DNA from: an uncultured Oscillospiraceae bacterium
GTDB lineage: Bacteria; Bacillota; Clostridia; Oscillospirales; Oscillospiraceae
DNA: 39,715 nucleotides
NCBI GenBank assembly: GCA_951801655.1
Contig: CATONV010000017.1
Location: 1-39,715 of the forward strand
Direction of reading: 5' to 3'
Shown: piece by piece, positions 27,065 through 28,464 of the stretch
Layout: the number at the start of each line of letters is the position of its first letter
Position numbering within the stretch: position 1 is the first letter of the stretch
Program-made: the position numbers and the translations under genes
The notes under the pieces: model-generated
Database searches by the model: none
Told to the model about the DNA's origin: nothing
Seen by the model: only the letters and a program-made list of their open reading frames with translations

Positions 27065-27778
27065 ATGGACCATCCCTTCCGCTCGGCCGCCCTGGGCGGC
27101 TTCAACAAGCAGGACGTGCTGTCTTTTTTAGAGGAGCAGGCCAAGCAGTCATCCCAGGCCCAGCAGGAGCTGAGCGGCCGCCTGGAGGAGGCGCAGAATC
27201 GGGAGGAGGAGCTGCGCCGGGAGAGGGAGGGCCTGTCCAAAGAACTGGAGGAGGTCCGCCGGGAGCTGGAGACTGCCCGCCAGGGCCGGGACAGCCTGTC
27301 CGCCCGGCTGGATGAGGCGGAGCAGGAGCTGGCCGCCAGCCGCAAGCAGGCAGAACAGCTGAAGCACGAGGTGGAGCGTTTGCGCCAGGACCGGGACGAG
27401 CTGCGCCGGCAGGTGGAGGCGGTCCGCCCCGACGCCCAGGCCTATGTGGAGCTGAAGGAGCGCACCGCCGGGGTGGAGCTGGAGGCCCACCGCCGGGCTC
27501 AGACCATCCAGGAGAAGGCGGAGCGGGACGCGCAGAAGGCCCGCCGCCAGGTGGAGCAGTGGCTGCAGCGGGTGGGGAGGGAGTACGACGCCCTGTGCAG
27601 CCAGGTGGAGTCCACCGTCTCCCACGCCGCCAGCGAGCTGGAAAAGGCCGGTGCCGGCCTGGATCGGCTCAATGAGCTGCTAAGCGGGCAGGGCGACGCC
27701 CTGGAGGGAGTCCGCCGGGCCTACGACGCCACCGAGACGGGCCGACCCGAGGCCCCTATGCCGATTGACGAGGAATGA
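27065..27778 (+). CDS. DivIVA-like coiled-coil protein
   Basis: This 237-residue protein begins MDHPFRSAALGGFNKQDVLSF, which matches the membrane-binding N-terminal DivIVA/GpsB motif (F-R..GG.....V..FL). Residues 25-140 are a charged coiled coil of Glu, Arg, Gln and Leu heptads. Residues 150-215 form a second helical region. DivIVA family proteins mark curved membranes and poles and recruit division or sporulation factors. The ATG at 27065 follows GAGAGGTG. The last eight codons (APMPIDEE) and stop are copied at 28194-28219 within a direct repeat. Confidence 0.85.
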   Translation: MDHPFRSAALGGFNKQDVLSFLEEQAKQSSQAQQELSGRLEEAQNREEELRREREGLSKELEEVRRELETARQGRDSLSARLDEAEQELAASRKQAEQLKHEVERLRQDRDELRRQVEAVRPDAQAYVELKERTAGVELEAHRRAQTIQEKAERDAQKARRQVEQWLQRVGREYDALCSQVESTVSHAASELEKAGAGLDRLNELLSGQGDALEGVRRAYDATETGRPEAPMPIDEE

Positions 27779-27822
27779 ATGATTGACAAGACAGCGCCTG
27801 CCCTCTATACTGAGGACAGGCG
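27751..27822 (+). repeat. 72-bp direct repeat, copy 1
   Basis: It spans the end of the divIVA coding sequence, its stop and the following promoter. It matches 28193-28264 at 68 of 72 positions. Confidence 0.9.
27783..27811 (+). promoter_or_regulatory. Consensus SigA promoter of the small-peptide gene
   Basis: TTGACA (27783-27788) and TATACT (27806-27811) lie 17 bp apart. The start site should be near 27818, giving a leader of about 55 nt. Confidence 0.8.
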
Positions 27823-27833
27823 CTGTTGCAAAA

Positions 27834-27867
27834 TGGCGGTTAGCCACTCCCTTGCGGAAAGGGGGTG
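27834..27867 (+). promoter_or_regulatory. Leader hairpins that sequester the ribosome binding site
   Basis: TGGC (27834-27837) pairs with GCCA (27843-27846). Directly after, CTCCCTT (27847-27853) pairs with AAGGGGG (27859-27865, one G-T pair). The second stem buries the ribosome binding site of the 31-residue peptide. Confidence 0.6.
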
Positions 27868-27872
27868 AAGCG

Positions 27873-27968
27873 ATGGGAAACGGGCGCTGGACGAAAGTCC
27901 TGCGTTTCGTGGTGTGTCTGATCATGACAGCTTTGCTGATGATGGTTACATCCCCAAACGCGCGTTAG
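27873..27968 (+). CDS. Small hydrophobic peptide, candidate type I toxin
   Basis: This 31-residue peptide reads MGNGRWTKVLR followed by a hydrophobic helix FVVCLIMTALLMMVT and the tail SPNAR. A basic N-terminus and a single membrane span with a polar end are typical of type I toxins and small membrane peptides. The ATG at 27873 lies 5 nt after GGGGGTG, a site inside a hairpin. The stop TAG sits in the stem of a strong downstream hairpin. Its promoter is near consensus. An opposing consensus promoter lies at 28052-28080. The longer in-frame opening from 27783 begins inside the -35 and is not used. A leader peptide or membrane regulator is the alternative. Confidence 0.6.
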   Translation: MGNGRWTKVLRFVVCLIMTALLMMVTSPNAR

Positions 27969-27996
27969 CCGCCCGGCTAGGCCCCGGACGGCTAAC
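27964..27996. other. Strong hairpin overlapping the peptide stop codon
   Basis: GTTAGCCG (27964-27971) pairs with CGGCTAAC (27989-27996). An inner CCGG/CCGG stem (27973-27976 with 27984-27987) closes on seven bases. T-runs on both sides are short, so it is a weak terminator at best in either direction, or an mRNA-stabilising structure. Confidence 0.6.
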
Positions 27997-28011
27997 AGTT
28001 TCTGTTGGCAC

Positions 28012-28043
28012 AAAGGGCTGACCGCTACGCAGCAGCGCCTTTT
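28012..28043 (+). terminator. Terminator of the small-peptide mRNA
   Basis: AAAGG-GCTG (28012-28020) pairs with CAGC-(G)-CCTTT (28033-28042), with one bulged G, and the T-run continues to 28043. The mRNA would end almost exactly where the antisense RNA begins. Confidence 0.55.
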
Positions 28044-28051
28044 ATGGTTTC

Positions 28052-28080
28052 ATTATATCTGCGTTCCGGCGGTCTGTCAA
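28052..28080 (-). promoter_or_regulatory. Perfect consensus promoter for the antisense RNA
   Basis: On the minus strand TTGACA (28075-28080) and TATAAT (28052-28057) lie 17 bp apart. No minus-strand gene lies downstream for more than 1 kb, so it appears to drive a non-coding RNA. Confidence 0.85.
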
Positions 28081-28146
28081 GGGGGTTACACTCGCGGAAG
28101 TGTCCTAACTGCGCATTGTATGCTGATTGACTTTTTATGATGTTTC

Positions 28147-28190
28147 TGTAGGGGTGGGGAGTGCGTCCACAAGCGGCCACAGGCCACCCC
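28147..28190 (+). repeat. Palindromic repeat, divergent copy
   Basis: CTGTAGGGGTGG opens the unit. GGGGTGG (28151-28157) pairs with CCACCCC (28184-28190). It abuts copy 2 of the 72-bp direct repeat. Confidence 0.6.
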
Positions 28191-28192
28191 AA

Positions 28193-28264
28193 GGCCCCTA
28201 TGCCCATCGACGAGGAATGAATGATTGACAAGACAGCGCTTGCCCTCTATAGTGAGGACAGGCG
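28193..28264 (+). repeat. 72-bp direct repeat, copy 2
   Basis: It contains a duplicate of the last divIVA codons (APMPIDEE and stop) followed by a promoter. The four differences from copy 1 include one in the -10 (TATACT to TATAGT). Confidence 0.9.
28225..28253 (+). promoter_or_regulatory. SigA promoter of the ribbon-helix-helix gene
   Basis: TTGACA (28225-28230) and TATAGT (28248-28253) lie 17 bp apart, within copy 2 of the direct repeat. Confidence 0.75.
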
Positions 28265-28293: not shown

Positions 28294-28464
28294 TTGAAGG
28301 ACACAAAATTTTTAAGCATCCGCATGGATGATAAACTGCACAATAAATTTCGCTATGTAGCCGGAGCGGAGGGCCGCTCCATGAACAGCCAGGTTTTGTA
28401 TCTGATTCGAAGATGTATCCGGGACTATGAGTTGAAAAACGGAGAAATAAAGTGCGAGCAATAA
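28294..28464 (+). CDS. Arc-like ribbon-helix-helix protein 1
   Basis: This 56-residue protein starts at TTG 28294, 6 nt after AGGTGA. The sequence MKDTKFLSIRMDDKLHNKF gives the short strand and first helix, and GRSMNSQVLYLIRRCIRDYE gives the turn and second helix of an Arc/MetJ fold. The family binds DNA as dimers through the N-terminal strand. It is a paralogue of the next gene. Its promoter is in a duplicated segment. The target is unknown; autoregulation is common in the family. Confidence 0.75.
   Translation: MKDTKFLSIRMDDKLHNKFRYVAGAEGRSMNSQVLYLIRRCIRDYELKNGEIKCEQ

Follow-up and report, generated by a model that had tools for sequence, protein, structure and literature searches.

The described systems closest to the locus reported here are the type I toxin-antitoxin modules bsrG/SR4, bsrE/SR5 and txpA/RatA, and the Hol_Tox loci of Bacilli. 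They have a small membrane-type peptide, a buried SD sequence and a convergent antisense RNA that lies over the 3′ part of the toxin mRNA. The bsrG mRNA is predicted to fold, in order, into a helix between its 5′ and 3′ ends, an SD hairpin and a stop hairpin. Convergent promoters and a short membrane toxin are also features of Fst/RNAII (par), which carries direct repeats at the two 5′ ends. The aapA/IsoA modules of Helicobacter and hok/Sok, whose hosts belong to other phyla, combine a short hydrophobic toxin and an antisense RNA with long-range pairing of the mRNA ends. To our knowledge, few type I modules have been studied in gut Clostridia. Passages of two reviews describe antitoxin binding at the mRNA 3′ end, a buried RBS and cleavage by RNase III; they place SR4 on the 3′ part of helix P1 in bsrG RNA, and note that some bsrG loci encode BsrE/H instead (PMC6562991, PMC7430163). 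In the B. subtilis systems, as far as the first of these passages goes, the antisense RNA lies over the 3′ portion of the toxin message, and decay of the duplex depends on RNase III (PMC6562991). The section on Clostridia in a further source, in the part available, concerns C. difficile (PMC6563280).

The window (the whole stretch of 39,715 nucleotides that was analysed) comes from an uncultured Oscillospiraceae bacterium and carries, beside divIVA, a locus that we consider very likely to be a chromosomal type I toxin-antitoxin module. This reading is built on the sequence elements, their conservation and their covariation, from which we infer transcription, toxicity, antitoxin action and the part played by RNase III. 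In the proposed mechanism, a + strand mRNA would encode a 31-residue putative membrane toxin. The mRNA would close on itself, with its ends paired in two helices (P1 and P2) and its SD sequence held in a hairpin, and the start-codon region could pair with the end of the ORF; together these features would make for poor translation. A strong convergent promoter would give an antisense RNA of about 90 nt that spans the stop codon, is complementary to the 3′ part of the toxin message and probably ends at the stop-codon hairpin. Pairing of the two RNAs would open the mRNA to attack by RNase III and so keep the toxin off.

Both promoters named by the sequence-only reading are present. The sense (toxin) promoter on the + strand, TTGACA-17-TATACT at 27783-27811, scores 11/12, and at least 11/12 is reached in 31/46 copies of the module. 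On the − strand, TTGACA-17-TATAAT (28080-28052) is perfect at 12/12. Taken as the best score in a range of positions, this antisense promoter is 12/12 in 41/46 copies and at least 11/12 in 45/46 (the selecting script took only copies whose ORF was intact), against 6/1000 and 19/1000, respectively, at random places. A scan for promoter-like sites found three in 2 kb, compared to 0.6 (sd 0.8) in shuffles. The third, at 28225-28253, is part of a partial second copy made up of the divIVA end and the promoter. The two 5′ ends carry inverted repeats, not direct ones as in par.

The predicted toxin mRNA (27818-28043, + strand, 226 nt, both ends predicted) folds at −113.7 kcal/mol (z −6.4), and none of 200 shuffles folded as low. 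In this fold the first 12 bases are paired to the 3′ end of the same molecule, a feature that does not appear in the sequence-only reading. The leader of roughly 55 nt described there agrees with a predicted start at about 27818 and the ATG at 27873 (55 nt), and its second hairpin does cover the SD sequence (27846-27866, pairing 27846-27853 with 27859-27866). Helix P1 joins 27819-27829 to 28029-28039, and helix P2 joins 27836-27845 to 28016-28025. A separate terminator near 28043 was not confirmed: a scan for intrinsic ones returned nothing, and all that lies there is the P1 3′ strand followed by TTTT (28040-28043). By comparison, bsrG and several Hol_Tox plasmid loci have a distinct terminator hairpin in the space from the 3′ strand of P1 to the antisense promoter.

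The structure was examined in an alignment (A1) of 42 of the 46 examined copies; L017, L045, L063 and L087 were left out for cut flanks or divergence. With P1, P2, the SD hairpin and the stop hairpin in place, 91.5% of cells are paired, compared to 31-51% when the structure is slid along the alignment. P2 is paired in 97.4% of cells and the SD hairpin in 84.4%. Double changes occur in 24/41 pairs, against 14.8 (sd 2.0) in shuffles, and the double-change cells number 132 against 46.5; the covariation score is 0.276 against 0.183. None of 500 shuffles was as high in any of these three measures. By helix, double changes fall in 10/11 pairs of P1, 4/10 of P2, 4/8 of the SD hairpin and 6/12 of the stop hairpin, so the leader stem covaries along with the others. 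Further pair types do not stand out (53 vs 50.3, with 66/500 shuffles as high). RNAalifold on A1 recovers P2, the stop hairpin and part of the SD hairpin, and also pairs bases around the start codon with the last part of the ORF; it does not recover P1. In a cognate test of 5′-3′ pairing on 43 copies, the mean was −37.8 kcal/mol for cognate, −31.2 for non-cognate and −23.9 for shuffled partners, a mixed result in that two copies pair more weakly with their own end than their non-cognate mean.

A helix of this kind invites comparison with hok and AapA, in which case the full-length mRNA would be inert through its 5′-3′ helix and become active by trimming of its 3′ end. The covarying helix fits this, as a 5′-3′ helix is described for aapA mRNAs in the part of the source available (PMC6733600). 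However, when the 3′ end is trimmed in silico (27818-28012), the local SD hairpin stays intact in the predicted fold, and thus the 5′-3′ helix alone does not explain the SD block. The predicted antisense RNA here, unlike those of aapA/IsoA and hok/Sok, covers the 3′ part of the mRNA, as passages on the B. subtilis systems describe (PMC6562991). We therefore think it unlikely that activation by trimming is how this module works, and prefer a type I module of the bsrG kind.

The antisense RNA itself is predicted to run from about 28045 to 27952 on the − strand, with a presumed 3′ end, and to form two hairpins (−45.6 kcal/mol, z −2.3). The hairpin over the stop codon was correctly called from the letters and pairs 27964-27976 with 27984-27996. 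With at least nine perfect pairs it is found in 110/148 modules and 59/600 random places; at seven pairs the figures are 146/148 and 241/600. T-runs of at least four follow this hairpin in 26/44 and 63/102 modules on the antisense side, and in 6/44 and 15/102 on the sense side. Since they are commoner on the antisense side, the stop hairpin, together with the last codons of the toxin gene, may serve as the terminator of the antisense RNA.

The 31-codon ORF (27873-27968, + strand) encodes a peptide, described earlier as basic/hydrophobic, that has a basic N-terminus and one hydrophobic stretch and is probably a membrane toxin. It has no family in Pfam (E up to 1), NCBIfam or PHROGs, and no match to Hol_Tox, in agreement with the sequence-only reading, which did not recognise it as a described family. 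Its sequence thus differs from that of the Hol_Tox group. Family peptides read MGNGRWxKxLRFxVC...PKAC or alike. Conservation of the frame, whose absence the sequence-only reading named as refuting, comes out in its favour: all 21 DNA matches in the genus that span the ORF have it open. Against this stands a single additional copy (G034; L029/L042), in which an internal deletion has removed the leader and the start of the ORF. Median dN/dS is 0.49 in frame, 0.66 in the +1 frame and 1.26 in the +2 frame (554, 550 and 549 non-independent pairs). This is modest support for coding, as the in-frame value is moderately low and the +1 frame stands at 0.66, so that selection on the peptide is not cleanly separated from constraint on the RNA. 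A protein encoded on the antisense strand was considered and rejected; antisense frames are open across the ORF in 36/44, 30/44 and 2/44 copies, and the first two of these counts weigh against the toxin-antitoxin reading.

The genome holds a second copy of the module, 80% identical, beside pth on another contig (C10; the window copy beside divIVA is on C17). DNA matches occur in 23/61 genomes of the genus, many of them only short parts, and peptide matches in 16/60 relatives (E up to 1) and 20/300 genomes of the family (E up to 0.01). Tandem copies are present in G021, G153 and G237. A T-box leader lies beside tandem modules (L027, 1032-1267, − strand), and a search of 14 family loci against Rfam returned only this T-box, at one locus, and sub-threshold matches that we take for chance. 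Scanned by itself over 84,980 species, the leader motif was matched 41 times, in 39 stretches that include records of Oscillibacter, Evtepia, Pseudoflavonifractor, Flavonifractor, Intestinibacillus and Anaeromassilibacillus. Two of these matches are cut by the end of their stretch and were excluded. Of the remaining 39, the family ORF is present in 38 and an antisense promoter of at least 11/12 in 37, in a set that is not species-independent of the searches in relatives because the genome collections overlap (e.g., L239/L012, L245/L011). No DNA match to the module was found in plasmids. Among phages there is one match to the whole module, in MT836974.1, an unverified human faecal phage contig; the module there (L274, 4976-5240) has an open ORF of 28 codons. 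The 15 other phage matches are 30-base matches in mycobacteriophage deaminase genes, and the peptide alone had no match in the phage search.

To look further afield we used a model, R1, whose 139 positions and 8 pairs cover the 3′ part together with the antisense promoter. R1 matches 123/345 genomes of the order and 27/398 of the phylum at E up to 0.01. It matches the element on the opposite strand too, because the two ends of the element look alike. From 137 and 29 listed matches, 117 full ones were retained after dropping duplicates and cut-off, opposite-strand and weak matches. An SD-led ORF of 15-60 codons ends at most 45 bases from the start of the match in 104/117, compared to 145/1497 random places. 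The peptides, judged by eye, fall into several seemingly unrelated types: the K/NAC type of the window module, TYSELF..KKK, MEYITLILI..KKK, VTFH..VTIRIKR, Hol_Tox and others. Pfam assigned 3/10 of the typed peptides to Hol_Tox. In the window's own genome, R1 found matches beyond C17 and C10 on C48, C38 and C85, with other peptides, and one on C99 in which no ORF was found. The peptides at L093 (G000:C48:8523-8660), L094 (C38) and L097 (C85) are of the TYSDMF..KKK and VTFH..VTIRIKR types. End pairing could be scored in 103 of the 104 SD-led loci (one leader is too short). The cognate mean is −43.1 kcal/mol and the non-cognate mean −31.5; the cognate partner ranks first in 31/103 and within the best tenth in 71/103. 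Relative to shuffles, z is below −2.5 in 82/103 loci, and in 21 it is not. A second model, R2, rebuilt from 65 members, matches 37/61 genomes of the genus, at up to 22 places in one genome, and 30/398 genomes of the phylum (E up to 0.001).

Alternatively, with its inverted ends and inward promoters, the element could be a conserved regulatory RNA pair or a mobile repeat, along the lines of an sRNA gene or a MITE-like element, with the ORF as a mere bystander. The ends of the module are inverted repeats, its copies lie beside different genes (divIVA on C17, pth on C10) and also in tandem, and one is on the unverified phage contig. What makes this improbable is that the SD-led ORF in the 104/117 distant matches keeps a like length, is basic and hydrophobic, and ends at the same hairpin. 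In addition, the helix formed by the inverted ends shows base-for-base covariation, and the promoters outside it differ.

The surroundings in the divIVA locus have features of their own. A 15-bp palindrome whose loop contains the −10 box covers the sense promoter (27791-27826). Its pairing is clade-specific: 11-15 of 15 positions pair in seven copies, which come from divIVA loci and from C10 of the same genome, and no more than 9 of 15 in the other copies listed. The divIVA end and the palindromic promoter (27737-27822) are repeated at 28179-28264 with 91% identity, ahead of a ribbon-helix-helix (RHH) gene, in what looks like a duplication minus the toxin cassette. In G050 (L022), a perfect 15-bp palindrome without a toxin ORF lies between divIVA and the RHH gene, and this is an empty or emptied site. 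The RHH gene in the window is of the Arc type (28294-28464; Pfam Arc, E 5.4e−5), and a second RHH-like stretch follows it ahead of comFC; relatives have the two in the same interval between divIVA and comFC. The palindrome as an operator for the adjacent RHH gene was weighed and tentatively set aside: RHH and comFC are residents of the divIVA locus whether or not the module is there, and in G050 the palindrome follows divIVA where there is no toxin ORF. That the module is a leader or attenuator for RHH and comFC, upstream of which it also stands in the divIVA loci of G016, G003, G028, G009, G005 and G034, is highly improbable, given that the C10 module follows pth with no comFC in the flank read, that G050 has RHH and comFC without the module, and that an attenuator would have no use for a convergent consensus promoter.

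For the type I module, the likeness of the RNA layout to the bsrG kind is well supported. The order of helix, SD hairpin and stop hairpin is the same, and folding shows the 5′-3′ complementarity in the bsrG mRNA from phage SPBc2 as well (z −6.4). Among Hol_Tox plasmid loci this complementarity reaches z −2.6 or below in 6/8, with −1.2 in L282 and +1.2 in L284. Common descent with the bsrG kind is likely. RF01412 (BsrG) matches three loci found by R1 (L134, L138, L145) below its gathering score. In the reverse direction, R1 was run on nine RF01412 loci and matched three of them (L215, L216, L226) at the same place with E up to 0.001. On bsrG in phage SPBc2, R1 gave E = 1.0, third of three matches and not significant; R2 gave no match there, and its best among the eight Hol_Tox plasmid loci was E = 0.0085. 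The RNA has no Rfam match at gathering, and in 27760-28110 neither BsrG nor another relevant family matches up to E = 10. The sequence-only reading did not recognise the RNA as a described family, and this needs qualifying in that its layout is of the bsrG/bsrE kind. A literature search, mostly without full texts, recognised neither the peptide family nor such modules in its genera. The sequence is best read as an RNA layout like that of BsrG/BsrE that carries a toxin of a new family.

In relatives the same RNA layout surrounds quite different peptides, which suggests that conservation lies in the RNA design and that the toxin varies. The sequence of type I toxins drifts fast, and modules are usually sought by toxin sequence, according to passages of PMC6562991, in which swapping of toxins on one RNA chassis is also suggested for BsrG and BsrE. 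We lean slightly towards a single ancient RNA chassis on which unrelated peptides have been exchanged, with up to 22 modelled copies per genome. Such a chassis would consist of the 5′-3′ helix, the SD and stop hairpins and a convergent antisense gene, the stop hairpin and last codons acting as the antisense terminator. The module raises the question of what role a 5′-3′ helix plays in the toxin mRNA of a Gram-positive bacterium. Should it be the RNA scaffold that is conserved, type I modules in gut Clostridia could be searched for by that scaffold, and whether toxins are swapped on one RNA chassis could be asked directly.
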